This document shows positions 1 to 52,717 of a DNA stretch of 64,000 bases, in pieces. Position numbers and translations under genes: made by a program. The first letter of the stretch is position 1, and each line of letters starts with the position of its first letter. The DNA is from Escallonia rubra (lineage: Eukaryota; Streptophyta; Magnoliopsida; Escalloniales; Escalloniaceae), in assembly GCA_033065855.1 (NCBI GenBank), contig JAVXUO010000089.1, positions 1 to 64,000 of the forward strand. Direction: 5' to 3'. Under the pieces are notes generated by a model that was not told the DNA's origin, searched no databases, and saw only the letters and a list, made by a program, of their open reading frames with translations.

Positions 1-156
1 CAGTATAGCGGACAGTATTGCCCATCCCCTTTCTTTCAGCACAATTTTCTTCTACTCAATTCTTTCAGCACAATTTTCTTCTCCTTCAGACTCGCTTCCA
101 TTTTCAGCTGCCTTCAAGCTTCGAGTAACACTTGCTTCAAGCTTCGCTCAAGCAAG

Positions 157-461
157 GTAAGTTTGCTTCAAGTTTTCTTGATGTTCTAGAAATTTGTCAC
201 TGTATTCATCAATTTGTGATTTTATACTCTAGATTTTTTGTGATGTTCTAGACATGATGTTCATCAAAAAGGTATAATTTGTTAACTTTATATTTAATTC
301 ATTATAGTTTAATTCGATTTTTTGGCATGATGAATTCGTCTATTTATCTTACTAATTTAAATTTGTTATGTTCAATAAATTAGTAATTGTTAATTTGGAG
401 ACACTTTTGAGATTATGCATACCGTATGTTTGCCATCCTAATTTTTAGGTAATATTTTCAG
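157..461 (+). other. Probable 5' UTR intron of the transposase gene
   Basis: A strong donor (CAAG|GTAAGT at 153-162) and an acceptor (TATTTTCAG ending at 461) flank an AT-rich stretch. The first ATG of the long ORF follows at 520. An intron in the leader would join the pyrimidine-rich exon at about 60-156 to the coding exon. This is inferred from splice signals only. Confidence 0.5.
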
Positions 462-519
462 TTAGAAATGCCATTTGATTGTTAAGCGTAGTCTATTTCT
501 ACACAGCTCTTGTTTCACA

Positions 520-2817
520 ATGTCTGATTTCGTGTCGAGCTCCAACGTCCCCGTAGATGCTAGTGATCCGTATCTAGGACGAACATTTGCTACGTTGGAA
601 GAAGCTGAAGCATGTTTTCGAGCGTATTCATTGAGGGTTGGTTTTGGCATTAGAATAAAGACTTCAAGAACGAGCACCATAACGAGAAAGATATGCTCTC
701 GCTTATACGAGTGCCATAGGAGCAGAAACCCAGTGCAAAATGAGACATGTGTAGGCAATGATGACAGTGAGGACGAAATAGGATATCCGCGTAGAAGACG
801 GGACTGCTTTGAGCGCACAAATTGCCAGGTCAAGATGTTCGTAAGCTACAAACCCAAACAAGACCATTGGCTTATTACCAGCCTGGAACTGGCACACAAT
901 CACCCGTTAGTAACCCCTTCTAAGGTGAGTGAGATGCATCAACACAAGAAGATGGGTAAGGTCGCAAGGAGCCTGATTCAGACAATGAGCAATGCGCGAC
1001 TAGGACCTACCGACATGATTAATGTTCTTGCTGAACAGGCTGGGGGAATTCAAAATTTGACCTTTAACACGACAGACGTTCGTAACGCGGTCCGAACCCA
1101 TAGACGAGCCGCGTATGACCTCAATGATGCTCAAGCCACAATGAGCCTATTGAAACGGATGCAGATGGAGGACCCGCAGTTGACCTTCGATTATAAACTT
1201 GACGACGAGCATCGAGTTAGCACAATTTTTTGGGTCGACGGTCGTTCGAGGCTTGCTTATAAGCATTTTGGGGATGTCGTGACGTTCGACACCACATACC
1301 GTACCAACAAGTACTCGATGCCGTTCGCCCCTTTCACGGGGGTCAATCATCATTATCACTCCATCCTGTTCGGGTTCGCCTTGTTAAGGGACGAGACCGA
1401 GAGTTCTTTTGAATGGTTGTTTAGGACGTGGCTGGAAGCAATGAACTTCAAAGCACCCAAAGTGATCATCACCGATCAAGATTTGGCAATGAAGAAGGCT
1501 ATTGCGACCGTCTTCCCAGACACTCGGCACAACTTGTGCACCTGGCACATAAGCAACAAATACCCGGAACGGCTGCATCACGTGTACGCAAAGTATCAAG
1601 ACTTTAAACAGGATTTTGACAAGTGCGTCCTCAAGTCGTTAACGATTGAGGAATTCGAGGAGAGGTGGGAAAAGCTTGTTCGGGATTACTCATTGCAAGA
1701 CAACGAGTGGCTCCAGCACTTGTACGAGCGCAAAGAGCAATGGATTGGCGTTTACACGAGGAGGTATTTTTCAGCGGGCATGAAAACGACGGGCAGGAGT
1801 GAATCCATGAATGCCACGTTCGATAGTTATGTGGGTACAGCTACCAATTTGAAGACTTTCGTTGCATCCGCACAAAAAGCGGTAGCTTCGTTGTTCGTAA
1901 AAGAAAGGGCTGCCGACTTTGCAACAACGTACAAACAAAGGAGAACGTTGCTCGAGACCCCGCTGGAGATGAACGGTGCCAAAGTCTATACGAAGGAGAT
2001 CTTCTTGCTATACCAAGTAGAGCTGCGAAAATCCGGACGATACAGTATAAACAAGGTGGCAGAAATGTCTACGCGTGAGTACAAGGTTTATTCGCTCGTG
2101 AATGACCTAGTCCCTGAGAAGCTGCGCAGAATGTATACGGTGAGCCACGACACATTGACGGACTCGGTGACATGTGTTTGCAAGAAGTTTGAGTTCCATG
2201 GCATCCTGTGTAGACACGTTCTGCGGTTTTTCACCCAGAAGAATATCAGGACAATCCCCGATAAATACGTCTTGCCACGGTGGACAAAAGGTGCAAACAG
2301 GTTGCACGGTACCATTTCCTTTCCGGAGCACCCGTATACTGACTTTGAAGAATCAGAGACGTTGCGGTATAATCATCTGGTGACGATGTTCACCCGTTTG
2401 TCCGTAAAAGGTGCTGCTACAATGGTCGGTTATAAACATCTCCTCGAGGTAGCTCAGCAACAAGAGCCCATCGTCGACCAGTTGGAAGCAGCTTCAGTCA
2501 CCAATGCGATTGACACCGAGCCTACGACGGGGGTATCAGAAGATGACGAGCCGGAGGAGGAAGACGACAATGATATCCGTTTGTTGGATCCAATTATATC
2601 GCAAACGAAAGGCCGCAAGAGATCTACGCGGATGAAAAGCTCTATTGAAACGGCAACTCAACCTAAAAAGCTGCGAAGGTGTGCATTGTGCAACAAAATG
2701 ACCGACCACGACAAGCGGAACCATTACAAGGCACTGGGGATAAGTTCAAGGGGTTTGCAAGACGGGGAAGAAGGTGACGCCGAAGATGAGGACGAACAAG
2801 CTGCAGTGGACCTTTAA
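520..2817 (+). CDS. FAR1-domain MULE transposase (MURA-like), 765 aa
   Basis: A single uninterrupted exon. The N-terminal FAR1-type zinc-binding DNA-binding domain spans roughly residues 15-130 (RTFATLEEAEACF..., ending in AHNHPL). The MULE DDE domain follows: first Asp in VVTFDTTY, second Asp in IITDQD, then the HNLCTWHI C-x2-H motif typical of MURA proteins. A SWIM zinc finger (CVCKKFEFHGILCRH) lies near residue 550. The tail is acidic, with a second Cys/His cluster (RRCALCNKM...). ATG at 520 is chosen because it opens the conserved region; the frame upstream has only a TTG. Length fits an intact MULE transposase or FRS protein. Lying beside shared TIR palindromes and other element genes, it is better called a transposase than a domesticated FRS regulator. 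It would bind the termini, cut and reinsert the element in the nucleus. Confidence 0.9.
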   Translation: MSDFVSSSNVPVDASDPYLGRTFATLEEAEACFRAYSLRVGFGIRIKTSRTSTITRKICSRLYECHRSRNPVQNETCVGNDDSEDEIGYPRRRRDCFERTNCQVKMFVSYKPKQDHWLITSLELAHNHPLVTPSKVSEMHQHKKMGKVARSLIQTMSNARLGPTDMINVLAEQAGGIQNLTFNTTDVRNAVRTHRRAAYDLNDAQATMSLLKRMQMEDPQLTFDYKLDDEHRVSTIFWVDGRSRLAYKHFGDVVTFDTTYRTNKYSMPFAPFTGVNHHYHSILFGFALLRDETESSFEWLFRTWLEAMNFKAPKVIITDQDLAMKKAIATVFPDTRHNLCTWHISNKYPERLHHVYAKYQDFKQDFDKCVLKSLTIEEFEERWEKLVRDYSLQDNEWLQHLYERKEQWIGVYTRRYFSAGMKTTGRSESMNATFDSYVGTATNLKTFVASAQKAVASLFVKERAADFATTYKQRRTLLETPLEMNGAKVYTKEIFLLYQVELRKSGRYSINKVAEMSTREYKVYSLVNDLVPEKLRRMYTVSHDTLTDSVTCVCKKFEFHGILCRHVLRFFTQKNIRTIPDKYVLPRWTKGANRLHGTISFPEHPYTDFEESETLRYNHLVTMFTRLSVKGAATMVGYKHLLEVAQQQEPIVDQLEAASVTNAIDTEPTTGVSEDDEPEEEDDNDIRLLDPIISQTKGRKRSTRMKSSIETATQPKKLRRCALCNKMTDHDKRNHYKALGISSRGLQDGEEGDAEDEDEQAAVDL

Positions 2818-2967
2818 TTTTTTGTACAACTTTATGACATTTGTAATAATATTCGAGGGATAATTTTTCGACCGGGTACTGGAATTTTTTTAAAATGGAC
2901 CTATGAGAGGCCATCGAATCAAATCTAAAGTCTTTATTACGAGTTTTTTTTTATTTTGTAATTCCCC

Positions 2968-3194
2968 GTCCGCTATACAATGTAGCGGACATCATTGACT
3001 TTGGTCTTTTACGTCCGCTATATTGTATAGCGGAGGGGTGGCATCGAAGTAAAACTTTTGGTCTTTGTACGTCCGCTATACAATGTAGCGGACGTTAGAG
3101 CACAAACTTTTGGTCTTCTTTAATGTCCGCTATATAATATAGCGGACGTCATAACTTTTGGTCTTCTTTTATGTCCGCTATACAATGTAGCGGA
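2968..3194. repeat. Cluster of five 23-bp palindromes downstream of the transposase
   Basis: Copies at 2968-2990, 3012-3034, 3071-3093, 3125-3147 and 3172-3194. Each reads GTCCGCTA, seven variable bases, then TAGCGGAC or a one-base variant. They are separated by diverged spacers containing ACTTTTGGTCTT. Spacing is about 44-59 bp. They sit between the transposase stop and the B3 promoter region. Confidence 0.9.
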
Positions 3195-3234
3195 TAAGTC
3201 TATATGATATATATTAATCATATCGGGCAATCGG

Positions 3235-3260
3235 CTGTTATCAGTCCAATCTGATAACAG
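3235..3260. promoter_or_regulatory. Perfect 10-bp inverted repeat upstream of the B3 gene
   Basis: CTGTTATCAG (3235-3244), a 6-bp loop TCCAAT, then CTGATAACAG (3251-3260). It lies about 100 bp upstream of the B3 start codon, close to the AT-rich TATA-like stretch at about 3204-3218. It could be a dimeric protein-binding site in the B3 promoter or leader. The symmetry is seen; the role is inferred. Confidence 0.5.
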
Positions 3261-3362
3261 TCTCTCTGTCTGGAACATCTAGCCCAGGCCCTCCATCTCC
3301 GGCGACCCACAGGTGATCCACAACTCCGGCGATAAACCGTCCCCCCCTCAACGCCGACCTCG

Positions 3363-3826
3363 ATGGCTTCTGGATCGGAGACCACCTACGATTTTATTGG
3401 CAACTTGCACCTGGCAGGCAAACACTTTTTCAAAGTCATGATGCCGGGGTTTGAGAATGAACTTGTACGCCATCCCTCTATCTCTGTATTTTCGTGTGTT
3501 AAATCTTTTGGTTAAAAACTAACCTATTTTTTGTGTATTGTGTTTGTTAGGACATACCGGAAGCCTTCACCAATCAATTTACAACAATTCATGACAGTGC
3601 AAGATTATATAGCCGCAAGGGGGCATGGCAGGTTGAAATCAAGCTGAAGCCCGGCCGACCCCAAAAAAAGCAATTCGCAGAGGGTTGGAACGTCTTCGTG
3701 CGCCAGCATGGCCTCGAACTCGGGGACTTTGTAGTGTTTGAACACCTTGGGTGGTGGGATTTTGAAGTTGTAATCTTTGATCGGAGCACTTGTGAAAAAA
3801 TTTCTTTCCCCCAATGTGAACCCTAA
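3363..3826 (+). CDS. Small B3-domain protein, 125 aa, two exons (3363-3464, 3551-3826)
   Basis: Exon 1 has 34 codons (MASGSETTYDF...). The phase-0 intron 3465-3550 has GT...TTAG ends, and exon 2 has 91 codons plus a stop at 3824-3826. The product is almost wholly one plant B3 DNA-binding domain of the REM type: HFFKVMMPGF, then IPEAFTNQF, a W-x-V-x-L-like strand (GAWQVEIKL), FAEGWNVFVRQHGLELGDFVVF, and FEVVIFDRSTCEK at the end. All the usual B3 strand signatures are present without a stop or frameshift. No activation domain or extra region is visible, so it would act as a bare DNA-binding protein in the nucleus. The retained intron points to capture as DNA rather than by reverse transcription. 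It lies inside the MULE between two palindrome clusters. The palindrome is an attractive but untested target. Confidence 0.82.
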
Positions 3827-3900
3827 TTTATGATTAATAAAATAATTTGAGTTCTTGTTGATTGTGTTTCGAAATTTTTCCTCGCTTAATTGTGTCAACT

Positions 3901-3990
3901 GAAATAGCCTCGATATATTGAGATACCCTCGATAGTGAATGGTAGGTTGAAATAGCCTCGATATATTGAGATACACTCGATAGTGAATGG
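3901..3990. repeat. 48-bp direct tandem duplication
   Basis: Two copies starting at 3901 and 3949 (GAAATAGCCTCGATATATTG...), nearly identical, each with CGATATATTGAGATAC and CTCGATAGTGAATGG. They sit between the B3 stop and the palindrome array. Confidence 0.85.
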
Positions 3991-4009
3991 TTAATTGCAG
4001 GGATTTTAC

Positions 4010-4875
4010 GTCCGCGATACAATGTAGCGGACGGCGCAGCAGAAACTTTTGTTATCAACACTTAGAAAAATTTGGTCTTCATTTTACGTCCGCGATACAA
4101 TGTAGCGGACGGCGCAGCAGAAACTTTTGGTATCAACACTTAGAAAAATTTGGTCTTCATTTTACGTCCGCGATACAATATAGCGGACGGCGCAGCAGAA
4201 ACATTTGGTCTTCATTTTACGTCCGCGAGACAATGTAGCGGACGGCGCAGCAGAAACTTTTGGTATCAACACTTAGAAAAATTTGGTCTTCATTTTACGT
4301 CCGCGATACAATGTAGCGGACGGCGCAGCAGAAACTTTTGGTCTTCATTTTACGTCCGCGATACAATGTAGCAGACGTTGCAGATGCAACTTTTGGTATC
4401 AACACTTAGAAAAATTTGGTCTTCATTTTACGTCCGCGATACAATGTAGCGGACGGCGCAGCAGAAACTTTTGGTCTTCATTTTACGTCCGCGATACAAT
4501 GTAGCGGACGGCGCAGCAGAAACTTTTGGTATCAACACTTAGAAAAATTTGGTCTTCATTTTACGTCCGCGATACAATGTAGCGGACGGCGCAGCAGAAA
4601 CTTTTGGTATCAACACTTAGAAAAATTTGGTCTTCATTTTACGTCCGCGATACAATGTAGCGGACGGCGCAGCAGAAACTTTTGGTATCAACACTTAGAA
4701 AAATTTGGTCTTCATTTTACGTCCGCGATACAATATAGCGGACAAGAAACTTTTGGTCTTCAGTCCGCGATACAATGTAGCGGACGGCGCAGCAGAAACT
4801 TTTGGTATCAACACTTAGAAAAATTTGGTCTTCATTTTACGTCCGCGATACAATGTAGCGGACGGCGCAGCAGAG
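4010..4875. repeat. Thirteen-copy palindrome array with 78-bp and 55-bp units
   Basis: Palindromes start at 4010, 4088, 4166, 4221, 4299, 4354, 4432, 4487, 4565, 4643, 4721, 4763 and 4841. Each is GTCCGCGATAC-AATGTAGCGGAC or a 1-3 base variant, followed by GGCGCAGCAGAAACTTTTGG. The 78-bp units add a 23-bp insert (TATCAACACTTAGAAAAATT plus three bases) that the 55-bp units lack. One 42-bp unit is further shortened. The ORFs that run through the array are by-products of its periodicity. The array fills the space between the convergent B3 and PMD-Ulp1 genes. Confidence 0.95.
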
Positions 4876-5063
4876 AAACTTCCAAAAATTTTGCACCATT
4901 TCGTTTTCCACATTTCAATCATTCCCAATGAGGCCAAAAAACCAACAACGTTCATCAGAAAAATAACACAAATCAAATCACACCAACGACAACAGAAATC
5001 AACACAAATCAAATCACACCAATGGCGTACGGTTTATGTAAAAAATACTGTTATGATACAATT

Positions 5064-8000
5064 TCAACTGGGGTCCGCATGTTGGGCCGGATTCTCGTCA
5101 TTAGCCGGATTTTCTATAAACCTAACCGCTCTAGGCCGGCCTTTCATAATTTGCCAAGCCATTCTATATCTATAGCCTTCAACTTCTGCTTGGCTCCAGA
5201 CGGCCGCCTTGAGGCTCTCAGAGCGACAAATGAAATCCATGTACATGCAAAGGAAGACGCCGCAGTCCGAAGTGTTACGTTGCTTGGGCCTCCTCTTCTT
5301 CAATCGCCTATTGAGATTTGGCCGCGCCGGTACGGGGACATCACGGACACGATTGACCATTGCACAAAAAATATTCTGCGAGAAACAGAAAATGGCGTAA
5401 GACACGAGTTAAAATTTATGGCAAGATAGAATCAGAGAATTATACAGCGATCGTAATATTACCAACGCGTCCAATTGGGCTTTGTACATGTGCAGCACAG
5501 GCATCTGATGAGTATCGTCGTGGAGACTGTCGATCACCGATACGACTTTAGTTGTTGGGGAGTAGCAAACCAAGTACCAGTGGCTGTGCCCTAGAAATGG
5601 GATTAGAAACACATCGGCAACACTTGCGCTCACCGGACTATCCCTATTAAGATACGCTCGTAGGTTAAAGGACGGTCTCCACTGGGCCAACTTTTTCTTC
5701 CCCCTATTTTCGACCCACTCATGCCATTCAGACACTAGCATCTGATGAAAAAAGGCATCGAACAGAAAAACGGCCGGATAGCTCGGCTGCTGCCGACACC
5801 TTTCCTTCAGAATCTCCACGTAGGTGGAGACGACACCGGTGTCTAACCAACTCCCCGGAGCCAGCGAGGCCAGTTCTCCCCACGAGCAACTGTAATCCAT
5901 GCCCTCCGGATGATCCACACTATACAACGCTTGGTCATGGGGGACGCCGCTAAAATAACGCTCTCTGATTATCTGGCATTTCTGCGGCTTTAGGGGCTTC
6001 AACGGATGCCCTTTGCGATATTGCCCTCGGGGGTCGACCGGGGGGTATTGCACTCCTTCGGGGGGGTCGACGGGGGGATATTGCACTCCTTCGGGGGGGT
6101 CGACGGGGGGATATTGCACTCCTTCAGGGGGGTCAACGGGGGGGTATTGCCCGCCTTCGGCAATAGATGGTCCTGCCCACGGGACAATGGGCAGACTGAT
6201 GTTTCCGAAAATCCAGTCTTGCGTGACTTGACTCTGGGAGAGGGGTTGGGGTTCCGAATCCAATCGTAAAGAGAAGGAGGGCGCACTGTAATAATCCCAC
6301 GGCGCTTGAGCCTGGCCCATGGTGCTTGGCGGTCCCCAATCACCAGCCATCTCTGGTACAGAGGGAAAACCATATCCCTGGCTCACTCCCGAAGTCTGTC
6401 CCGAGGGATCGGTGCATCCCTCGGGAACAAACGGCCGCTGCCACCCCGGATAACCCATTCCCGGGTTTGGCTGTCCCGATGCTTGCAGCAAAAAATTCCC
6501 GCAGCCAACCGCCAACGCTTCAGCCTGTTGGCGAAGCTCCTCGCCCATGGCATCCACCAAATCCTTCCGCTCGCTCAACTTCTGGAAGAAGGCGAACGAG
6601 GCATTAACCTACATCCAGAGAGATAATAAATAAGTAACTTCGTACACACTTAGAATGATCAAGTTCAATTAGAAGCACTGGTTGGGCAACTTACCAGATT
6701 GTATGCCATGTGCTCATCGATCTGACCCCTAGGGTGGTACTTCTCCCCGCGTTCAAACCTTACTGGAGCTACTCTCCTCCGGGTGATGCGGTAGTACCAC
6801 TCGTTGTACTGTTCGATACTGATGACGGGGTCAGGCTCCGACACAATGGCCGCCAGCGTGTCCTGCCAAGAATTCCAGACCTCAATTTCACGCGCGCACA
6901 ACTCGTGCGCATTCGCCCTGCCAAACAGTCCGACACCCGGTGGGTTCCTGTTAAGCCTCATATCTGGCGCGCCGGCTGGCAACCCCTGCAGGCAGTCAAA
7001 ATGGCGCATAGCGCGATCCGGCAGCTGCCACTCTGCGACCTCGAAGTGGATCAGGGGTGTGCGTTGCAACCCGGAGAGCGTGAAGACGAACGACTCTCCC
7101 ACCCGTCGCGCCAAACGTTTGTACGGTGCCCATCGCATCTGGCCAGGAGATAACGAGTCGAGCTCCCCCCGATAGTATGAAATGTTGTGATGGGGATCGT
7201 CTCTCCTCTCGTAGTGGGTTTCCTTCCGGCTGTACTCCCAGGCGCACAACCGAGGCCACACATTATCTGTTCCGTCCCTACGCCTGGGTGCGCCGGTAGC
7301 AAGGTGTTCATAAGACCACACCTGAGAGCAAAGACATTGAAAAAAGTATCGTCAACATTTATTGTCCATTCAACAAAAAAAAAACAACAAAGAGCACGTA
7401 ATGAAGAATTGTATGATATACCTGCAATAGCGAGAGACATGCACATATCGCTTTGGAGTCGGGCCTCGTTGCCTTGTGCAATGCTCGGTACAGGTATGCA
7501 AGAGTTGCTGCACCCCAGGCATAATCCCCAACCTCAGCCAGGTTACGCAAAAACGGTATATATTTGACGCTGACCGTGTTCTTCGACGTCGTTGGGAATA
7601 ATATTGCCCCCATCACCCACAAGAGGAAGGCTTGTGTGTACAGCACAAGGTCATGGCCCGTATAGTTTTCCGGCAAAACCCCGTAGGTATCTACCAACCA
7701 CTTCAACTTGATACCACCACTGCTAAATCCATCCTGGGGTACCGAAGTAAAGAAGTCCCTAGCGGTCCTCTTATTCGTTGCTTCGGACGGATGAGCTATT
7801 ACCGGCCGCCCCGTCACCGGTAACCCTAAGATGAACCCTACATCTTCTAGGGTAATTGTCATCTCTCCGAGAGGGAAGTGAAACGTATTCGTTTCACTTC
7901 TCCACCTTTCAACAAGGGCACCTATTAAGTGCCGGTCAAGTTGTTGAAAGATCTGCCCATGCGTGAAAATCCCAAACCCAATCCCACGCAGTAATCTTTT

Positions 8001-8259
8001 CTGGGTTCTGTTCAATTTTCAGGCGTTGAAATTATCGCTTACTTCTACCGTGTTGACAAGTGCTCTTTCCTACGAATTAATAAATATTATTTAAGCAAAA
8101 TAAACACTATACAACGTTCGCAACTGAAATACGTAAGCAAAATAAACGATATAAACGATAAAATAAGTATCTTACTCCACCATCCCATATGAGCGTACTG
8201 ATATGGGATGCTTGGTCGTATAATACGGACGAATCTTCTGGTCCAGGGTTGAAATCCAT
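5064..8259 (-). CDS. Plant mobile domain-Ulp1 (C48) cysteine protease fusion, 915 aa, five exons
   Basis: Exons on the minus strand: 8259-8176, 8000-7422, 7321-6695, 6608-5463 and 5375-5064. All four introns (175, 100, 86 and 87 bp) have GT-AG ends and phase 0, and the joined frame is open for 916 codons including the stop. Residues 1-28 are the usual PMD opening (MDFNPGPEDSSVLY...HISTLIWDGG). Exons 2-3 carry the PMD (ALVERW, FHFPLGEMTITLEDVGFILGLPVTG, then VWSYEHL). A linker has PPVDPPEGVQY repeats. The C-terminal Ulp1 fold shows HW (GHSHWYLVCY), D (VIDS), Q (PKQRN) and C (TSDCGVF), so the protease triad and oxyanion Gln look intact. Ulp1 enzymes cleave SUMO-like conjugates. PMD proteins such as MAIN/MAIL1 act in silencing and genome stability. 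Such fusions are known passengers of plant MULEs (for example Kaonashi-type). Its job here is unknown. Confidence 0.85.
6025..6165 (-). repeat. 33-bp coding minisatellite (PPVDPPEGVQY) in the PMD-Ulp1 linker
   Basis: About four and a half near-identical 33-bp units encode PPVDPPEGVQY in tandem, with edge copies ending GGQY and RGQY. They lie in exon 4 between the PMD and the Ulp1 domain, a flexible acidic/proline linker. Unit number probably varies between copies of the element. Confidence 0.9.
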
Positions 8260-8663
8260 TTTTTGCAACTGAAATAATGGAAAGAGGGCAAGGTTGGAAG
8301 CGTAAACATTCCCAAACATACAACGCTAGCATATTCAGCGCTAGCATGTGATCAGATAATACGCAATACACATATATAATATATATGTATATACATTGAC
8401 AAACGCTAGCATAGTGCCTATCTACTTGCCAACGCCGCAAGATGAACTCTAGATTATGAACAAAGTAAGGATTAGTTTGTGAACTTACGTGATTGATGAG
8501 ACGATTAAAGGATTTCTTGCAAAGAAATTGCGCCGATCTACTTGCCAACGCCGCTGGTTTGATCGTGAGAAGAAGGAATAGTTTGATTGTGAGAAGAAGG
8601 AATAGTTTGATTGTGAGAAGAAGGAATGAATAGACGTTTTGAAGGATTCGAAGTCGTGCCAAC
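8260..8663 (-). promoter_or_regulatory. Leader and promoter region of PMD-Ulp1 with 25-bp repeats
   Basis: This is the stretch between the PMD-Ulp1 ATG and the terminal palindromes. It contains three tandem copies of a 25-bp unit (TTTGATTGTGAGAAGAAGGA...) at about 8556-8630. It also has two copies of CTACTTGCCAACGCCGC (about 8420 and 8538) and an alternating TATATA segment near 8375-8392. No ORF in it resembles a protein. Confidence 0.5.
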
Positions 8664-9003
8664 GTCCGCTACACTGTGTTGCGGACGCTGGGATAACGAC
8701 AAAGTAACAGACGTGCATCGACTGATGTGACAACTGTCAGGGGGAAGTGGGTGGTTTGACGGAAACAGTCGTCCGCTAGACAGTGTAGCGGACTACTTTT
8801 TGTTGGCCCAAGAATGTCGTCCGCTAGACTGTGTAGCGGACGGGTGAGCGAGGGCAAGATGGTAAAAAGATCCGTCCGCGAGACTGTGTAGCGGACGACT
8901 GACAGCGCCGCAAAAAAAAGTGATCTGGACCGTCCATCCCTTCGGGATGGACGGCCAGACGCTGGCAAGATATCCTATTTTGCCTACGCGGTCAAGGGAT
9001 CAG
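8664..9003. repeat. Right terminal region of the gene-bearing MULE
   Basis: Four palindromes (8664-8686, 8771-8793, 8819-8841, 8874-8896) are followed by GACTGACAG, an inverted-repeat box (CCGTCCATCCC/GGGATGGACGG, 8930-8954), CTATTTTGCC and the end GGATCAGCTCCCC. The same order of boxes forms the TIRs of the elements at 18429-20297 and 36707-42674. Confidence 0.85.
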
Positions 9004-9006
9004 CTC

Positions 9007-9009
<3 letters not shown>

Positions 9010-9077
<68 letters not shown>

Positions 9078-9078: not shown

Positions 9079-9764
9079 CATGTCCGCTACACAGTGTAGC
9101 GGATAAGGGAGGAGGGGTAATATGGTAAAGAAAAAGATCGTCCGTTACACTATGTAGCTGTAACATCCCCGGAAATCCGAAAATCCGGAGCTTCGCCGCC
9201 CCGAACTCCCGAGTCGTTAACCTACCGGATCATATCAAACCTGTCAGATTTGTTCACTAACACATACTTCAAATCATCTAATTCCGCATCAACTCAGATT
9301 TCTCAAAATACTAGATCACAATTTCTTAGCTTAAACTATTACAGCTTAGGTTCTTCGCAATTCAAATTCTCTAAGATCAAATAATAGTACCGACCCACGC
9401 AGGGGTCTCCCTACACAGTAGTGATGGGCTCATCGGAATCTCACACAGACTCTAACCCATTCCCGAACCTGCTACAGCTTATCCTCACCTGCAAAAGGGA
9501 GCCAAACGAAGGGTGAGCTTTTGAGAGCCCAGTAAGGTCGTACAAGGACTACCAAAAGAGATTATAACACGACTCTGAAAAATCCAACCGGCGATGATTT
9601 TCAAAATATTTTGAACGACCAAAACTCAATGATTACCTAAAATGATCAAAGTTCATCAGAAATAGATGCCAAAATAAACATTAACAATCAGAACAAAATC
9701 CTAAACAATTAGTAAAAGATCCTTTTCAAGTCATCATTTCCAAAATATAGCAGATTTTTCGAGG

Positions 9765-12001: not shown

Positions 12002-12434
12002 TGTTGACAATCAAAAATAAATTGTCCGAGAACAAACGGGTTTTAACAACCCAAAACAAACACTCAATATATATTTGTTAACACACAAAGTACAAACACT
12101 CTTCTCTAACTCAGCTCGTAGGAGCTTTTCATTCAAGTTTTTACACACCTTACAAATAAGTGAGACCATGTCTCTTTATATAGAAATGGAGAGGCGGTGT
12201 CAAGCTATCCAAGATAGCTAGAAGCTGCCCAAGATAGCTAGAAGCTGCATGAAGTCCAAACAGCTAAGAAACAGCTGAGAGGCGGTGGAGACCATTTCTC
12301 CAGCTGTTCTTAGTTGGCTTTCTTCTCCATGAATCTGAACTCTTCACAATGAAGAAACAAAGGAGTAAAGGATTTGCCAAGCCTACAATTGTTGACTTAT
12401 TCAACAATTCAAAACCAAGTTTACTTTCTCAACA
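12002..12434 (-). repeat. 3' LTR of the copia element
   Basis: 433 bp. A TATA-like box on the minus strand (CTATATAAAGAG, 12172-12183) sits after a U3 that carries two copies of an AAGATAGCTAGAAGCTG-like motif (about 12209-12248) and several AGCTG/CAGCTAAG motifs. The end of the pol ORF runs into this LTR, with its stop at 12401-12403. Confidence 0.95.
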
Positions 12435-15400
12435 TCCTCCCTTAAACTTGGTTTGATCACTCCGAGCATCTTTTTAAACTTGAAAAATAAATCAGCTTTA
12501 AGCGGCTTCGTAAAGATATCTGCAATTTGATTTTCTGATGCACAATACTCAATCACGATCTCTTTGTCTTTCACCAAGTCTCGGATGTAGTGATGTTTAA
12601 TATCAATATGCTTGCTGCGACCATGAAACACCGGGTTCTTTGTTAAAGCAATTGCTGACTTGTTATCACAAAAAATTGTCGTAGGACAATCTTGTTGATG
12701 TTGTAATTCATTAAGCATTCTCCGCAACCAAACTGCTTGAGTAGCGCAACTTGTTGCTGCTATGTACTCCGCTTCCGTTGTTGAAAGAGCTACTACTTGT
12801 TGTTTCTTTGACGACCAAGAAATTGCTCCCGAACCAAGATAAAATACATTACCTGAAGTGCTCTTTCGTTTTTCAGTGTCACCACCCCAATCACTATCTG
12901 TATATCCAACTAACTCAATGTTATTAGAACTAGAATAAAATATGCCATCATCAAGTGTACCTTTAATGTATCTCAAAATTCGTTTTGCAGCTTGCCAATG
13001 AGACTGCTGTGGTGAATTCATAAATCTGCTTACAATCCCAACTCCATAGACAATGTCAGGTCTAGTTGCTGTTAAGTACCTTAAGCTTCCAACAAGTCTC
13101 CGAAAATTTGTTGCATTAACAAAATCACCGCTTCCATCTTTCACGAGCTTAGACCTTTCTTCAACTGGTATTAGAATTGGATTGCAAGCTTCCATCTTAA
13201 ATTTCTTCAAGATATCTCCTGCATATTTCTTTTGTGAAAGAAATATGCCTCTGTTTGTCTGCTTCACCTCTATGCCAAGAAAGTAAGACATTAACCCTAT
13301 ATCTGTCATCTCAAATTGAGCAATCATATCCTCCCTGAATTCTGACAAAAACTTTAAATTGTTGCCGGTGAAGATTAAATCATCCACATAAAGGCAAACA
13401 ATGACAATGTCTCCATCCTTGTTGGTTTTGACATACAAAGTATGCTCATATGGACACTTATGAAAACCATGATCAAGAAAATAAGTGTCAATACGAGTAT
13501 ACCACGCCCTTGGTGCTTGCTTTAGACCATATAAAGCCCTTTTTAACCAATAAACTTTATCTTCCTCTCCTTTCTTCTCATAACCCGGTGGTTGCTCAAC
13601 ATAAACTTCTTCTTCAAGTATACCATTTAAGAATGCAGACTTGACATCCATTTGATATATTTTCCAGTGATTTTGAGCAGCTAGAGAAATGATTATACGA
13701 ACCGTATCCAACCTAACAACAGGAGCAAATACTTCAAAGTAATCAATACCTGGCTTTTGCTTGTATCCTTTTGCCACTAACCTCGCTTTATAGCGTTCCA
13801 CTTCACCATTGGGCTTGTACTTTGTTTTGTACACCCACTTGACTCCAATTGGCTTCTTTCCTTTTGGTAGAGTTGTTAACTCCCATGTATTGTTCTTCTC
13901 AATGGCATGAATTTCTTCATTCATTGCTTTAATCCAACGATCATCATTAGCTGCTTCCTCGAACGTTACTGGATCACAATCTGCAAACAAAGCATAATGG
14001 GCAACTTCTTCTTCATTATCATCATCAGGATCATGATCATCACCGACTTCATAATCTTGTAAATAAGCAGGTGGATGACGATCACGTTGCGAGCGTCTAA
14101 GTAAAGGCGATACATGTGGAGATGACTCTTCGGGAACTGGAGGAGAAGACGGCTCACCTATTTGATTAATTGCTTCTACTTCGTTGTTTATGAATACCGG
14201 TACTGACAACGATCTCTTTTCTTCTTCTGACCAATCCCATACTCCATCTTCGTCAAAAGTAACATCCCGACTGATAATCACCTTTTTTGTCTTTGGATTA
14301 TATAACTTGTAACCCTTTGTTTCCAAACTATAACCAATAAAGATGCATTTTTCAGCCTTGCCATCAAGTTTCTTTCTCAGCTGATCAGGTACATGTGAAT
14401 AGGCAATACAACCAAACACCCTCAGATGACTAATATTAGGCTTTTGTCCGCTCCATGCTTCTTGTGGAGTTTTGTCGCGCATACTTCTAACAGGGCACCT
14501 ATTCAAAATATAAACCGCACAAGCCACGGCTTCCGCCCAAAAACTTTTAGGTAATTTCTTACAATGCATCATGCTTCTCACCATATCCATAATAGTTCTG
14601 TTTTTCCTTTCTGCCACTCCATTTTGTTGAGGAGTATACCTGGCCGTCAACTGATGCTTAATTCCACGCTTTCTTAAGTAATCATCACAAACAATATATT
14701 CAGTTCCTCTATCAGTTCTCAAAGTTTTGAGTGAATAACCGCTTCGCTTTTCAACATATGCCACAAAATTCTTAAGTACTTCACATGCATCAGATTTTTG
14801 CTTCAAGAAATAGACCCATGCCTTTCTACTGAAATCATCAATGAAAGTAATAAAGTATTTGCTACCTCCATTAGATGGAACTTCCACATAGCATAAGTCT
14901 GAATGCACAAGCTCAAGTGGACTTTTGGCTCTCCATGGTTGTCTTATAGGAAATGGATCTCTATGCTTCTTTCCCATAACACAGGGCTCACAAACTTGAT
15001 CAGGAACTTGAATAGTTGGCAGGCCTAAAACCCATTTTTTGTTTGCAAGAAACTTAATGCTTCCAAAATTCAAATGCCCAAGGCGCATATGCCACAACCA
15101 ATTATCATCGATAATCACAGAATTACAGTAAGAAGGATTACTATAATTAATATTCGTCGGAAATAAACGGTTGGTTGACATCTTTGTCTTCAATATCGTG
15201 CCCTTCTTTGCATCACTCAAAATGCATCCGTGTTTGTTAAAACACAAATCATAGCCTTTTTCTGCTAGCTGTCCCACACTTAACAAATTTTGACAAATAC
15301 TAGGAGCATAGTATACTTCAGAAATATAATTTGAAGACCCATCATTCACTTTAATAGCAATCCTCCCTTTCCCTAGAACTGGAATTTTGTAGTTATCACC

Positions 15401-16525
15401 AAGTTTTACAGAAGAACGAAATGACTCATCTAGATCAGAAAAAACTTCCTTGTTTCCACTTAGGTGATTACTGCAACCCGAGTCTAACAACCACTGACCA
15501 TTATTAGAACTAGTTTCATGACTAGCCAGTAATAAGGTTTCTGGATTATCATTCTGTGCTACTCCAGCGTGATTTTCTTTATTTTCTAATCTTCTAGCAC
15601 GACACTCTCTACTATAATGGCCATACTTTTTACAGTTATGACACTGAACATGCGACTTGCATTCAGATTTATAATGACCATGCTTTTTGCATTTATAACA
15701 CTGAATATTTGATTTATCTTGAGAAGATTCATTACCTCGTTCTCCTTGTCTGGCAACGCTTCTGAAATTCCTGCCTCCTCTACCTCTGAAGTTTTGTCCT
15801 CTTTGATTTTGCTCTGTTCGACTTGTAGTATTCTCCTTCTCATTTTTCAAATTTACTTGGGCTTTTAATGCTTGCTCCATTGAGCTTTGTGACCTTTCAT
15901 TCATCCACATCTCACGTGACTCTAATGAAGCTTGTAAATCATTGAGAGTCATAGTGGTAAGGTCTTTAGATTCTTCAATCGCTGTCACTACATAATCGAA
16001 CCGACTTGATAGCGTACGCATAATCTTCTCTAAAACATCTTTCTCAGTTATTTCATCACCATTATTTTTCATCTCGTTGACTAGTTTTTCTATTCGAGAA
16101 AAATAATCACGAATATTTTCTTCTTTGCCTTGCTCCATTAGTTCGAACTGTCTTTTTAACCCCTGCAGTCTTGTTCGTTTAACTAGATCTGCACCTTCAT
16201 ATGTTTTCAATAGAATACTCCAAGCGTCTTTTGCGGTTTTAGCATGAAATATTTTTTCAAGAACTGACAACTCAACTGACTGACATATCAAGAATAAGGC
16301 CTTTTCATTAACGGAACGGTCACGTACCTGTTGTTGTTTTTCTTCATCTGACAGATTGTCTTTTTCAACAAAGCCTTTCTCCAGAATTTCTCCATAACCA
16401 CCACTTCTCAAACATAACTCCATCAAATGCTTCCACATCGCGAAATTATTTTTTCCATCAAACTTGAAGATTGTTGATTGCACCTGTTGAATTTGTTGAA
16501 CTCCAGTTGTTGAACTTGACGCCAT
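12401..16525 (-). CDS. Copia gag-pol polyprotein, 1374 aa, uninterrupted
   Basis: ATG at 16523-16525 ([11 protein letters not shown]) is the first in frame; the stop is at 12401-12403. Order of domains: UBN2-type Gag (residues 1-250); two CCHC zinc knuckles near 275 and 295 ([28 protein letters not shown]); aspartic protease near 345 ([10 protein letters not shown]); pre-integrase HHCC region near 480; integrase core with D (HSDLC), D (RTDRG) and E (GVAERKN); reverse transcriptase with YVDD near 1045; RNase H with D (YTDSDW), E (TTEAEY) and D (FCDNKSA). All catalytic residues are present. The order PR-IN-RT-RH defines Ty1/copia. The clade within copia (Tork/Tnt1-like or other) is not settled by eye. 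Confidence 0.95.
12435..12444 (-). other. Copia polypurine tract
   Basis: On the minus strand AAGGGAGGA ends exactly at the 3' LTR boundary, the usual position for plus-strand priming. Confidence 0.85.
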
Positions 16526-16536
16526 CTTGTAGAATC

Positions 16537-16551
16537 TGGCTCTTGATACCA
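16537..16551 (-). other. Copia primer binding site
   Basis: On the minus strand, TGGTATCAAGAGCC lies two to three bases inside the 5' LTR. It resembles the complement of the 3' end of initiator tRNA-Met (TGGTATCAGAGC) with one extra A. Confidence 0.75.
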
Positions 16552-16553
16552 AT

Positions 16554-17872: not shown

Positions 17873-18403
17873 TAAGTAGGAGGTGGCCAACTTAAATAAA
17901 AATTTCCTAAATTACTTTTATAAAATTGCACAAATGCCCCCCAAAACTTTACATATTTTCAAAAAGACCCCCTAAACTTTCTATAATCACATTTAAGCCC
18001 TAAAAATTGTCTAATCCTTGTTAATTAAATCAAATGTCACTAAACACACAATATCACTCATATTATTACCTTTCATCACCAAAAATAAATTTATAATTAT
18101 ACCCCCAAAGTTTTCTGAAATTACAAAAATGCCCCCAAGATTTCAAAATTTACGTTTTTGCCCCAAATTTCTTTTAAGCTTCAATACGCTAGTAATACCC
18201 GGGCATTGCCCAAAATTAACGCCCGTCTATTTTTCGGAGCACCAATGGTTATTTTAACCGGCTCCTGAAGTTCGGGATATTAGAGTAGCGGACGACTGAC
18301 AGCTTTTGAAAAAACAAAGATTTGGTCCGTCCATCCTCAAAGGATGGACGGCTAGATCGAGCTAGCAAAATCTCATATTTTACTAGTGCTCTCAACGGAT
18401 CAA

Positions 18404-18426
18404 CTATATATATATATATATATATT
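18404..18426. repeat. (TA)n tract between adjacent MULE ends
   Basis: A TA run separates the second MULE end (to 18403) from the next element (from 18429). Confidence 0.9.
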
Positions 18427-18428
18427 TC

Positions 18429-19852
18429 GGAGCTGATCCGTTGAGAGCGCGAGCAAAATAGGAGATCTTGCAAACGCGATCTGGCCGTTCATCCTGAAAG
18501 ATGGATGGCCCAGATCGCGCCTTTTTCGAATACTGTCAGTCGTCCGCGACACTATCTCGAGGACGGACTTTTTTACCTTTTTGCCCCTCCGCCCCGTCCG
18601 CTACACTGTATTGCGGACGGTCCAAATTTTTTTTTTACGTTTTTTTTAAGTTCGTCCGCTACATAATGTAGCAGATGATTTTTTGATAAAAATACTCTCC
18701 TGTTCCATCCGCTACATTATGTAGCGGACGAGTAGAGAGACATTATTATTTTTTCTCTTTCTATGTCCTTTCTCTCATTGTCCTTCTGACATCTCTCTCT
18801 ATCTCTCTCATTTCTCTCACTGTCCTCTCTCTCTCTCTTTCTCTCTCTCGTTTCTCTCACTGTCCTCATTTTCCTGTTCTTCCTCAACCACTACACTACA
18901 AAATTAGAAACTACAACCGATTGCAAGTAGGAGATAAGACAATCCATAAAGCCTCTTTCGTGCTCCATCCCATCATCAAGTGCAAGGCCAAAAATGCCAG
19001 CAGGTGATATTGACAATGTAGACAAATTAGAAGACGGAATGCATTGTCGAGGTCCCTTGTCTACTTTGATCTTTGTCTCATCTTTCTGAATGCCTGTTCT
19101 TCGAGCCTGAACGCGAAGTCGCCAATGTCAGCGCAGAAGACCTCTGGATCTGATCCTTCTACCAGATCTGCCGGCTTCCTCGTCGGAGAAGACGAAGATT
19201 TGACTGCTCCGGCGCTGCTCTTCGACGTCTCTTCTAAAAATTTGCCTGTCACTTGATGCTTGTCATGGTATTACTGCTTGCTAATTGTGTTCTTGCGCTG
19301 CCTGATGGTGGAAAACAATTTTGAGTTGGGGCTGTATAAGAATATCCTAATTGCATGTTACGCTAACAAGATGTGTCCCCGAGATATCTGTTAGTACTTT
19401 CTGGGTTACAATACATGAACATATGTCTGTTCATTAACAGACTGGCCATCTCTTGAATCTTCTTGAGGAAGGCAGTGGGCACAATCTACAAGAATGTTGT
19501 TTGCCCCTAAATTGGTGGTCTTTGATGGCATAATCACTCTGCCAGTGGGGAACTTTGGCTATTGTTGGGCTGTATGAGAATACTTTAATTCTATGTAAGG
19601 ATGTTTACTAATGAGAAGTTCCTCGCTTCACTAACAAGCTCCTTCCGTGAGATATATAGACACAGATGCATGGCACTTTTTTTTAGCTCCAAGGACCCTT
19701 TGACACTTTCTGGGAGACATGAATCTCACTTGATTTGTATCTCCGAGCTACAATGAACAAGATCCATGCTATGAAAATTTGTGTTACATCCAGAACCCAT
19801 AAAAGAAATCACGGTGAGAGAAAAGAGAGAGAAAGTGTCATAAATTGATGAG

Positions 19853-19884
<32 letters not shown>

Positions 19885-20295
19885 GAAAGAGAGTGTGTCA
19901 GAAATTGACGAGAGAAATGAGAGAGAGAGAGAGAGAGAAACATGTCAGAATTTTAATGAGAGGAAGGATAGAAAAAAAAGTAGTGTATGTCTACTCGTCC
20001 GCTACATAATGTAGCGGATGGAACATGAGGGTATTTTTGTCAAAAAATCGTCCGCTACATTATGTAGTGGACGAACTTAAAAAAAACGTAAAAAAAAAAT
20101 TTGGACCGTCCGCGATACAGTGTAGCGGACGGGGCGGAGGGGCAAAAAGGTAAAAAAGTCCGTCCGCGACATAGTGTCGCGGACGACTGACAGTATTCGA
20201 AAAAGGCGCGATCTGGGCCGTCCATCTTTCAGGATGGACGGCCAGATCGCGTTTGCAAGATCTCCTATTTTGCCCGCGCTCTCAACGGATCAGCT

Positions 20296-20297
<2 letters not shown>
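18429..20297. mobile_element. Non-autonomous MULE, 1.87 kb, ~300-bp TIRs
   Basis: The left TIR starts GGAGCTGATCCGTTGAGAGC and the right TIR ends with its complement, ...CAACGGATCAGCTCC. Each TIR has four palindromes: left at 18542, 18596, 18654 and 18707; right at 19997, 20050, 20108 and 20162. Conserved CCGCCCC/GGGGCGG and GGATGGAC boxes occur between them. Both outer ends touch (TA)n. There is no transposase, so it must be moved in trans, plausibly by the product at 520-2817. Subterminal CT/AG microsatellites lie inside each TIR. Confidence 0.9.
18890..19800. other. Non-coding or captured filler inside the 1.87-kb MULE
   Basis: About 0.9 kb without repeats, including short frames open on both strands at about 19044-19256 (plus frame ending VSSKNLPVT). 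I recognise no domain. It could be captured host sequence, as in Pack-MULEs, but no exon or splice structure is clear. Confidence 0.35.

Positions 20298-20338
<41 letters not shown>
20298..20338. repeat. (TA)n tract
   Basis: A pure TA run between the 1.87-kb MULE and the following TIR element. Confidence 0.95.
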
Positions 20339-30799: not shown

Positions 30800-33080
30800 A
30801 TCTCATGAAATGTTTAAAATCTGGGACTCTAACTTCTCTGACTATAACCCGAGGCCTAACTTTGGACCTAAGCAGCATCATTCTTCAAAGTCTCCTCTAT
30901 GACCTTCTGGGGCTGGGCTACTTCTCTGGCTGGACGCCAAAGCCTCTTCGGCTTCCTCCTCGGCCTCATCACTTCATCCCTCAACCTTTTCAGGGGTGGC
31001 TTCGGTAGTTGCCTCATCCTTACTCTATTGATCATTTATCTCATCTTTAGATTCAGGAGAGGACTCCACTATCACTGTCTCGTTAGATTGAGGCTTCTTG
31101 TACGTGTGTCGTAAGACCGCAAAAATCCTGAATGATTTTTCGTCGCCGCTTCAATGGAGAAGATTGAGCCTTTCTCTTGCTCCCGGTGACCACTTCTTTG
31201 CCTTTGGACAAGGTCGGCACTGATGTAGTCTATTTCTCCCATTTTACGGTCATAACGATACTCTTCACACGTTTGCCCTTTGGAATGACGGGAGTTGCCA
31301 TAGGGGTGGCAATAACAGCAGCAGCAGGGCTAGGGGCTCAGCGGAGTTCGGCCTACCACGCGATCCACCTCCTGAAGGTCGCATCGAGGGTGTAGAGTAA
31401 GCGCCCCCGTTGCCTCCTCCAAGGATCCATACATGGACATCAAATCCCAGTAGCCGGACACCATGCCCTTTAGGCTATGGATCATCCTATAGGCATCTCT
31501 AAGCAGTGAACTCGAGACTTACATCAAGAAAAAACATAGAATTAAGATCTAGTCAAGATAGATGTGTGTGGATCCTAGCCAGCTCCTCAAGCCCGAATAC
31601 CTCAGAGTCCTTCTCCGGCCAAGGAATCGGCTCTTGGTCCTTGGTCTTCCCCCTCAAGAAGACTAGTATTGTCCATGGAGGGAAGGGAATGCCCTCAGCC
31701 ACATCAGTTTCCTTCTTGCCTTTCCCCTTCTTCTCCCAGGCCGTCTCCTCTATCTGAATCTTCTTTAACCATTCCGAGGATACGGGAGGCCCCAGATCTT
31801 CTCTCGCGAATGCCTTATAGGTACGAGGGTCGCTTGGCCATTAAATGGAAGACACCGGAATCCCCCTAAGCAGACTCTGCTTCAGCTCTCTGTCCAACTC
31901 CTCTACGTGTGCTACATCTCCTCAGGAAGGACAGTTGGAATCCTAAAACTAACAGCATCATGATAGAGCGAGGGTCCCACCAACAAAAGTTGGCACTAGG
32001 TGTGGGCCAATTCCTTGGCATAGTCTCCTACCTTCCCCACCACAGAGATAGGGATTCCTTAAATAAAAGAAAAAAATTGTGAGATGTGACAAGTATGCAT
32101 AGGGGAAAATTGACAAAACTTAGAAAATTGCTTACAGGTGCTCTCTCAAACTATTGAAGCTGTCTCGATGCAAAAACTCTGAAACCCCGGCCTTCTCATC
32201 CTTAAAGTTTTACCGAGTCATCGTCGGTGTAGTCTCGTCAGCATGCGCCTCCCCCTGGAAGGGAACACGAGAGCCGAGAATCTCAAAGGCCCAAATCTGT
32301 GAGAGCACAAAGCTAGATGTGAGAAATATGTCTAGAATATGCTTAGGATAATTAGACAATAACCAGATAGCATTAACATACCTCCCAGACATTGCACAAG
32401 CCCATGAAGTTGAGGGATTGCTTTCGGGACACAGCACCCATAGACTGATAAAGATAAGCAAGATCAGAGTACCCCAGTCGTATTCCCTGACCTCCTTAAG
32501 AGTCTCCAAGTCCGAAAGCACCAAAGCTGGACAGAGTCATCCCTATTGCTAGAAAGGGTCTCCCCCAGAGTGTATAGGGAAAATCCCCGAACAAACTGAT
32601 CCACCACCATAGGCTCCACCCCCTCCAAGTTTATGTTCTTGTAGTGAGTGCGAAGGGTACCCAAGAGTATCGAACCACCCTTCTTGTAGGATGGTTCGTA
32701 GCCGAGCAGACGACCACGAGGTCCTGGTCTTTATTAAGGTTCTGGGCCCAAGGTACAGGCCTTCCTCGGGAACGACTACCCGCGATGTTTGTAAAGTCGA
32801 ATGGGTGACCGTGGCCTCCCCTAACGGCATGTGAAAGGTGTTGGTGGTGTCTTACCAACACTCAGCAAGACACATGAGGTGTCTTTTCCTCCAGGTTGAG
32901 CGTGCAACCCATCCAAAAAGGGTGGAAACCCATGACGACTATTCTATCCTTAACGGGGGCGGAGATTTTTCCCCACCACTCTCTCACAAGATTTGGAGAT
33001 CCCCTACATCACATATTCGTGGGGAGGGGATGTAAAATTGCAAAGCAAACAAAAAAATTTAAGGAATCGTCCGAATCATA
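30800..33080 (-). pseudogene. Antisense plant mobile domain gene remnant
   Basis: Minus-strand segments in order: MPLGEATVTH...FDFTNIAGSR (32861-32760, the PMD core), EGVEPMVVDQFVRGFSLYTLGETL (about 32600), LKEVREYDWGTLIL (about 32480) and QIWAFEILGSRVPF (about 32270). A basic/acidic C-terminal part follows down to about 30800. It is broken by stops. It is the second PMD in this window but sits in a retrotransposon, not the MULE, and is antisense to gag-pol. Confidence 0.7.
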
Positions 33081-36500: not shown

Positions 36501-36706
36501 TTCCCCGGTGGCCCTGCTGTTGTCGTTGGCTCTGTTGCTCAGAGATGGAGGCACCGCTCACTCTAAGGCCGGCTGCCTTGCCTCTCTTTCTCTCTCGTTT
36601 TCTCTCAGTTACCTATCCACTCTTTCTCTCTCTGCCGTTTTCTTTTTTTTCAATTCATTTCTTTTGACTCTTTTATCTTAATTCCCCTATATAAATATAT
36701 ATATAT
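33523..36706 (-). repeat. 3' LTR, first part
   Basis: It begins TGTCACGACCAGAACCC with GACCGGCCGCAGACCCACTG next. The block 34990-35490 is almost entirely CA/TG-rich low complexity, which creates long spurious ORFs. It ends in a short (TA)n where the Pack-MULE-like element sits. Confidence 0.8.
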
Positions 36707-37091
36707 GAGCTGATCCGTTGAGAGCGCGGGCAAAATAGGAGAACTTGCAAGCGCGATCTGGCCGTCCATCCTGAAAGATGGATGGCCCAGATCGCGCCTT
36801 TTTCGAATACTGACAGTCGTCCGTGACACTATGTCGCGGACAGACTTTACCTTTTTGCCCCGTCCGCTACACTGTATCGCGAACGGTCCAAATATTTTTT
36901 TTACGTTTTTTTTTAGTTCGTCCGCTACATAATGTAGCGGATGTTTTTTTGACAAAAATACCCTATTGTTCCATCCGCTACATTATGTAGCGGAGGAGTA
37001 GGCAGACACTATTTTTTTTCCTGTCCTTTCTCTCATTCAAATTCTGACATGTTTCTCTCTCTCTCTCTCTCTCTCTCGTCAATTGTTGTAA

Positions 37092-40000: not shown

Positions 40001-40535
40001 GTGTGCCTTTGCTAAGTGTTACCCTGCACAGCCTGTTTGGCTTTGCAATATACTCATATCCCATATCATCTGCATTGCTTCAGTGAAAATCGAAAGTGCA
40101 TTTATTGAATCTTGAATTGAGAAATTTGAGAATATTGTTTCTCCATTGTCATTGACATAATTTTCTGACCAATTTGTTTGTAATCCCTACTAAATGTTGA
40201 GCGACCTTACGGAGCTATCGAAAGTTCACTCCCTTTTTCTGTTCCCTTCTGCAGGAAATTACTGTCAGTAAGATTCCAGGACGGACGAGCTTGAACTTCA
40301 AAGTATTTTATGTTTTTACATGATTATTTATTTAAGCCTTGTTAGAGAACCGTTATGTAATTTAATAATTTCAGTACTTTACTATTGTTTTGGGACGGTT
40401 TGTTAAGACAGTTGATGGATTGTAGTGCTCTAACATGGATGTTGTTGGGTTATCATCATTGGAAATGAATAAATTGGACAATTGGGGATTTGATTGATTG
40501 ATCAGTAAATGCTCCGGAAAGTCCGGGGTGTTACA
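37092..40535 (+). mobile_element. Solo LTR, 3.44 kb
   Basis: TGTAATACCCCGAATCC at the start and GTCCGGGGTGTTACA at the end form imperfect inverted ends. The flanks GTAA/ATAA look like a decayed target duplication. The uninterrupted site is visible nearby at about 40765 (TTGTTGTAACACTC). GT-rich low complexity (about 38040-38820) is the reverse of the CA-rich blocks in the minus-strand LTRs. No coding region. Confidence 0.8.
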
Positions 40536-40541
40536 ATAACA

Positions 40542-40572
<31 letters not shown>

Positions 40573-40787: not shown

Positions 40788-40826
<39 letters not shown>

Positions 40827-42672: not shown

Positions 42673-42674
<2 letters not shown>

Positions 42675-42724
<50 letters not shown>

Positions 42725-52716: not shown

Positions 52717-52717
52717 G

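Follow-up and report, generated by a model that had tools for sequence, protein, structure and literature searches.

The first 9,007 bases of the window, by which we mean the whole 64,000-nucleotide stretch analyzed here (positions 1 to 64,000 of Escallonia rubra contig JAVXUO010000089.1, assembly GCA_033065855.1), are best read as a nearly complete copy of a Jittery/FAR1-type Mutator-like element (MULE) of Escallonia that targets TA microsatellites and whose left end is missing. Three genes, encoding a transposase, a B3 protein, and a PMD domain fused to an Ulp1 protease (PMD-Ulp1), are very probably all carried by this one element, whose noncoding parts hold arrays of a 21-bp palindrome. The reading as a whole, with the role proposed below for the palindromes, we put at a probability of roughly 55%. 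The element's features, including the right terminal inverted repeat (TIR), are as follows.

1..13, + strand: inner half of the left-terminus palindrome, from the sequence (half-site TAGCGGA at position 6; the remainder lies beyond the window)
520..2817, + strand: transposase, 765 codons, with FAR1 DNA-binding, MULE catalytic (DDE), and SWIM zinc finger domains (open frame, Pfam, alignment)
2969..3194, no strand: array 1, with five palindromes in the gap from the transposase stop to the B3 start (motif scan)
3363..3464, + strand: B3 exon 1, 34 codons (gene model)
3465..3550, + strand: B3 intron, 86 nt, GT-AG, phase 0 (splice-site check)
3551..3826, + strand: B3 exon 2, 91 codons and stop (Pfam, comparison with P0122 of E. 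herrerae)
4011..4862, no strand: array 2, thirteen palindromes between the converging 3′ ends of B3 and PMD-Ulp1 (motif scan)
5064..5375, − strand: PMD-Ulp1 exon 5 and stop, with Ulp1 Gln and Cys (alignment with SENP2)
5463..6608, − strand: PMD-Ulp1 exon 4, with the linker and Ulp1 His and Asp (alignment with SENP2)
6695..7321, − strand: PMD-Ulp1 exon 3, with the PMD (Pfam)
7422..8069, − strand: PMD-Ulp1 exon 2, as in an E. rubra relative (match to P0123)
8019..8021, − strand: in-frame TGA at PMD-Ulp1 codon 45 (frame with acceptor 8070; Trp in most comparable homologs)
8176..8259, − strand: PMD-Ulp1 exon 1, 28 codons, donor GT at 8175 (gene model)
8661..9007, no strand: right terminus (TIR arm), with four palindromes (8665, 8772, 8820, 8875) and the end GGATCAGCTCC; its inner boundary is uncertain
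9010..9076, no strand: TA microsatellite, the target site, directly adjoining the right terminus

The element is spanned from base 1 to 8895 by one type of palindrome, TCCGC-NANACNNTGTA-GCGGA, which went unmentioned in an earlier, sequence-only reading of this DNA and whose arrays are the feature of most direct relevance to the regulator suggested there. Allowing at most 3 mismatches, it has 82 matches on both strands of the window (versus 0.06 expected), and these fall at 42 places, every one of which belongs to this element or to a complete or partial terminus of a relative. The element itself accounts for 22 and an older right end for 2; E2 has 8, the arms of E3 another 8, and a separate arm fragment within E3 (40611-40684) the last 2. 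E2 (18429-20297) is a non-autonomous relative with both arms (328 bp, 95% identical, four palindromes per arm) and TA repeats on both sides; E3 (36706-42674) is a larger non-autonomous relative whose arms are about 92% identical, with a further arm fragment inside at 40611-40710. Within the element, the 22 palindromes are grouped in three clusters: five lie between transposase and B3, thirteen where the 3′ ends of B3 and PMD-Ulp1 face each other, and four in the right arm. Although 5,493 of the 9,007 bases are coding, none of the 22 lies in coding sequence; when the three clusters are placed at random, they miss it entirely in 71 of 20,000 trials, a modest test, as it involves three clusters only. 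Array 2 is built largely of 55- and 78-bp tandem units, and the terminal arms of E2 and E3 each carry four palindromes at a spacing of 53 to 58 bp, with one 43-bp step in E3. The right arm (about 8661-9007) aligns at 71% with the older right end and at 62 to 66% with each arm of E2 and E3; since the latter still carry the arrays at this identity, the arrays have been retained despite divergence of the arms. The arms of E2 and E3 are 90 to 97% identical among themselves versus 62 to 66% to this element's right arm, and we therefore reject these two as direct deletion derivatives of the element.

The transposase places the element among MULEs. The 765-codon frame without a stop that had been proposed is present at 520-2817, and its Pfam matches (PF03101, FAR1, 1.2e-12; PF10551, MULE, 3.7e-33; PF04434, SWIM, 5.3e-5) make up the FAR1, MULE, and SWIM architecture of Jittery/FAR1-type MULEs. 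The FAR1 Cys/His, SWIM, and DDE positions are conserved when the query is aligned with 46 matches, which makes 47 rows kept of the 49 taken (the query plus the best 48 of 1838 matches). Conserved across these 47 rows are D257, D319/D321, and E428, which we take to be the catalytic residues of the MULE transposase. The closest match is P0002 (46%); here, as in the PMD searches below, scoring was limited to the roughly 8,000 candidates sharing the most words. A scan of viral contigs with the transposase gave no match. Nor does the element have the makeup of a Pack-MULE, as a transposase is present and the other genes are whole but for one stop.

The 125-codon B3 gene with a clean intron likewise stands as first described (3363-3464 plus 3551-3826, zero internal stops), and B3 is the sole domain that Pfam detects in its protein (1.5e-10, residues 22-112). 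Its only match, among just 2 candidates scored, is P0122 of E. herrerae, with 91% identity over exon 2: the eight differences over 91 residues divide into four in the 78 residues inside the Pfam match and four in the 13 residues past it. Because they are sparser inside the match than after it, they hint at constraint on the B3 domain. The P0122 gene model is without 15 residues that are encoded here at the end of exon 1, so that, judging from the two sequences, one gene model, or else one of the genes themselves, differs at this point. The predicted structure of P0122, standing in for the window's B3 protein, has a mean pLDDT (predicted confidence) of 44.9, and the solved chains nearest by sequence (VRN1 and At1g16640, E values of 0.01 to 0.04) give little information on the binding site.

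The third gene, PMD-Ulp1, is nearly open. Its Ulp1 domain aligns to SENP2 (1tgz, E value of 5.3e-14) with His, Asp, Gln, and Cys kept; these are presumably the catalytic residues, and the sequence-only reading was right that all of them are present. A 33-bp tandem repeat in four copies (6029-6160, exon 4) gives the linker that joins PMD to Ulp1 a repeat of 11 residues. Judged by its reading frame, however, the gene is broken by one stop in this copy. It had been described as a stop-free gene of 915 codons with four phase-0 GT-AG introns: the other three introns hold, but the 915-codon model (28 + 193 + 209 + 382 + 103) is reproduced solely when the first intron takes its acceptor at 8001, so that exon 2 begins at 8000, 69 nt further in. 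This acceptor omits 23 codons relative to acceptor 8070, and the earlier model bypasses the stop because the skipped stretch contains the TGA. Acceptor 8070 is in phase, gives 938 codons with a single internal stop (TGA, 8019-8021), and restores a segment, ER...KLN, that is seen in P0123, an E. rubra protein that matches this frame at 98.4% over 493 residues, gapless and with 8 mismatches, the stop position included. Among 69 PMD matches, the 23-codon stretch is covered in 65, whose residues at the stop position are W in 49, P in 5, L in 3, S in 3, a gap in 3, T in 1, and F in 1; both E. rubra PMD copies have W. In the predicted structure of E. rubra P0124, the skipped stretch is ordered (pLDDT of 78 and 91 for blocks 31-40 and 41-50; helix at 39-44). 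Acceptor 8001, though a formal GT-AG option, is thus rejected, since it drops codons that are covered in 65 of 69 homologs and ordered in the P0124 model. The stop also rules out three intact genes: of the proposed MULE encoding three intact proteins, the gene content survives and the intactness does not. The stop may be young, or it may be a sequencing or assembly error: both Escallonia assemblies (E. rubra, GCA_033065855.1, and E. herrerae, GCA_033070095.1) are described as derived from nanopore reads, with short-read polishing reported for E. rubra only (PMC10759652).

Relatives of the PMD bear on the age of this gene combination. After two E. rubra proteins, the best PMD match is P0125 (40%), and a PMD tree (64 of 70 rows kept) unites P0125 with the window copy and the two E. 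rubra copies in one clade with support of 100/99. As P0125 forms a long branch, its placement is less sure than this value suggests. Next to this clade is one of 32 rows, with proteins named MAIN-LIKE 2 among them, and PMDs fused to a MULE transposase (PMD plus PF10551) are placed elsewhere, apart from the clade of the window copy; of six such matches five were kept (three from Aristolochia and one each from Apium and Rhodiola), and Linum P0191 dropped out. P0002, the best transposase match, and P0125 each lie on one ENA contig of length 7311, probably the same contig, and the pairing of transposase and PMD may on this account be old. Elsewhere in the window, a weak PMD-like remnant occurs at 32393-32887 on the − strand (27% identity, E value of 1.6e-4).

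Because the left end lies outside the window, which opens with half a palindrome, the window cannot show both ends of the element. The right terminus is present; it ends at 9007 instead of the 9003 given in the sequence-only reading, and includes a short hairpin at about 8930-8954. Throughout the window, the outer termini of the element family lie within 5 bp of TA repeats (6 of 6: five pure runs and one imperfect, at 36706). From 1 to 8900, neither the end motif GGATCAGCTCC (≤1 mismatch) nor any other end motif searched for occurs, and there is no pure TA run of at least 16 bp. These absences argue against a composite, in which a transposase-B3 part and a PMD-Ulp1 part, originally two elements, merged through nesting, recombination, or deletion, as does the probable location of P0002 and P0125 on one contig. 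Family members do insert into TA repeats next to their own termini, the left end lies out of view, and the PMD of P0123 comes after another FAR1-type tail, all of which would suit a merger; on balance, we regard one as quite improbable.

Several points weigh against the reading of 1-9007 as a single three-gene MULE with functional accessory parts. With the left terminus beyond the window, we infer the shared membership of the three genes. A 13-base form of the end motif with 3 mismatches occurs twice within the element, at 1965 and 7787; both occurrences are in coding sequence and have no other end motifs beside them, and we take them for chance. The E. rubra P0123 model opens with a FAR1-type tail of another kind, 27% identical to the transposase here, and also has PPR domains; the PMD may therefore occur in another neighborhood as well, or the P0123 model may be a merger. 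The shared contig of P0002 and P0125 is read from the equal size of 7311 alone, and the homolog search for B3, with its 2 candidates, was weak. A fold search of the PDB with the PMD model returned 0 matches at an E value of ≤0.001, so the PMD fold points to no function. Lastly, the palindromes also occur in termini of elements that lack B3 and PMD, where the transposase alone could explain them.

Even so, we think it likely that the palindromes are bound by a protein of the element. We predict that they are recognized by a DNA-binding protein encoded by the element that is dimeric or has two-fold symmetry: the terminal palindromes would serve synapsis and cutting by the transposase, and those between genes and at promoter-side ends would gather a protein of the element (transposase, B3, or PMD-Ulp1) that could keep the element from silencing or regulate its genes. 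The thirteen-palindrome array between gene ends is not obviously needed for cutting. At the arrays, PMD-Ulp1 might act as a de-SUMOylase of silencing proteins; since the gene is broken in this copy, the protein would be provided in trans by other copies. By inference, the element would possess its own regulator and its own conjugate-removing enzyme. An anti-silencing role for PMD-Ulp1, B3, or both is possible, with the odds somewhat against it. Action of an element protein at the arrays is favored because of two precedents. VANC proteins are described as targeting short motif arrays in noncoding parts of the element, which expand as tandem repeats (PMC5735166), and their binding as removing methylation from their own VANDAL family (PMC5735166, PMC10398659); for MULE-borne PMD, an anti-silencing role has been proposed (PMC5418596). 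MULE TIRs, moreover, are reported to hold transposase sites and promoters (PMC3310237).

The palindromes could instead be transposase sites spread inward by tandem duplication, with B3 and PMD-Ulp1 as passengers that have no role in the life cycle of the element. E2 and E3 have arrays in their termini, and tblastn gave no match there to the three proteins, which would suit this alternative; MULEs with tandem terminal repeats are known (PMC3310237), and the PMD-Ulp1 gene is broken in this copy. We nonetheless consider passengers unlikely: PMD-Ulp1 has only one stop in 938 codons, B3 has an open frame here and an annotated protein counterpart in E. herrerae, and a PMD clade is common to the window copy and P0125. 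From the sequences, this near-open PMD-Ulp1, the open B3, and the shared clade suggest persistence over recent random capture.

Another alternative restricts the role to B3, which would bind the palindromes and repress or time the element's promoters as a form of copy-number control, not anti-silencing. Array 1 ends about 170 bp ahead of the B3 start, the right-end array is found upstream of PMD-Ulp1, some 400 bp from its start, and B3 is detected alone in its protein, as befits such a regulator. The palindrome does not resemble the familiar B3 sites (RY, CATGCA; ARF, TGTCNN), and the distant match to VRN1 and At1g16640 says little on the site; a B3 self-regulator is thus improbable in our judgment. 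We return to an element protein acting at the arrays. In its most specific form, B3 reads the array, a mark of the element and its relatives, and recruited PMD-Ulp1 strips SUMO or similar conjugates from silencing factors, which would amount to a second, independently evolved sequence-specific anti-silencing system of plant transposons. This is a long shot; if true, the B3 and PMD-Ulp1 pair performs with two proteins what VANC does with one.

Among known systems, the element by its sequence fits the TA-microsatellite-targeting, FAR1/Jittery-like MULEs and joins them as a variant. MuTAnT and AutoMuTAnT of Medicago truncatula, SaTar of guayule and rice, and TAFT of maize are described as inserting into TA repeats, as here (PMC4486113, PMC5907723), and MuTAnT, TAFT, and SaTar are like it in their long terminal arms, of which the right one is seen here, non-autonomous relatives, and clustered elements (PMC4486113, PMC5907723). 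AutoMuTAnT has a Jittery-type transposase, matching the type found here, but is reported as 4.9 kb with a single transposase open reading frame, whereas this element has two further genes and internal palindrome arrays (PMC4486113).

Likenesses also extend to MULEs with accessory genes. VANDAL21/Hiun of Arabidopsis shares the presence of three genes and a short noncoding motif spread by tandem duplication (PMC5735166), and the tandem peptide motifs frequent in VANC variable regions call to mind the fourfold 11-residue repeat of the PMD-Ulp1 linker, a mere resemblance (PMC5735166). VANDALs, however, are described as non-TIR elements whose VANC carries DUF1985, in contrast with the TIR-type end, 21-bp palindrome, and PMD, C48, and B3 proteins seen here (PMC5735166); Pfam found PMD, Peptidase_C48, DUF7745, and B3 but no DUF1985 in the scanned proteins. 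The noncoding motif arrays are thus a resemblance to the VANDAL/VANC system, not homology. A C48/Ulp1 region within a MULE is shared with Kaonashi and other Ulp1 MULEs of Arabidopsis, melon, rice, and grapevine (PMC13317346, PMC2528002), with the grapevine elements reported to have Ulp1 in either orientation to the transposase (PMC13317346, PMC2528002). The Kaonashi genes are described as Ulp1-carrying VANC genes of non-TIR MULEs, whereas here Ulp1 forms the C-terminal part of a PMD protein (PMC13317346, PMC2528002). The kinship with Kaonashi and VANDAL that the sequence-only reading had suggested thus falls on the features compared: the protein combines PMD with C48, no DUF1985 was detected, and the terminus is of the TIR type; we reject descent in common with either, given the differing domains and ends.

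For MULE-borne PMD-C, reported from grasses and Amborella, the likeness is a PMD close to the MAIN-LIKE type on a MULE (PMC5418596), but there it is fused to the transposase, and here it belongs to a separate, opposite-strand gene, fused to Ulp1, in a eudicot (PMC5418596). In our tree, the window PMD lies outside the clades of the five MULE-fused PMDs, among which there is, by name, no grass or Amborella fusion. MULE-borne PMD and MULE-borne Ulp1 have each been published already, separately. Using a limited library and phrasing, we found no report of a MULE that combines B3 with a fused PMD-Ulp1, nor any published description of a B3 gene in a MULE.

In the literature surveyed, VANDALs are the only transposons presented as carrying a protein that undoes silencing at its own motif arrays. 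If our reading is correct, a FAR1-type TIR MULE with motif arrays and two unrelated accessory proteins would be an independent case of anti-silencing, and the element would offer a direct test of the function of transposon-borne PMD and Ulp1. Should the accessory genes be mere passengers, the window still documents a eudicot MULE with a PMD-Ulp1 gene.

The family has left further traces nearby. An older right terminus of this family is probably represented by two segments (9080-9165 and 18281-18405), which flank about 9.1 kb that includes a Copia frame. Their junctions show no clean target-site duplication, which in MULEs measures 8-11 bp. TA runs stand directly at family termini at 9010-9077, 18405-18424, 20299-20338, and 42675-42720, and family members are arranged as described for SaTar arrays, in which elements adjoin each other's ends. 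The surroundings had been called badly decayed, which holds for broken retroelement pieces but not for a Copia-type element on the − strand (12401-16552) with a single open gag-pol frame of 1383 codons. The broken pieces, also on the − strand, lie at 51821-55806 and 61753-63827 (RVT_1, integrase H2C2, Tf2-1-like SH3, and aspartyl protease domains) and are presumably Gypsy-like.

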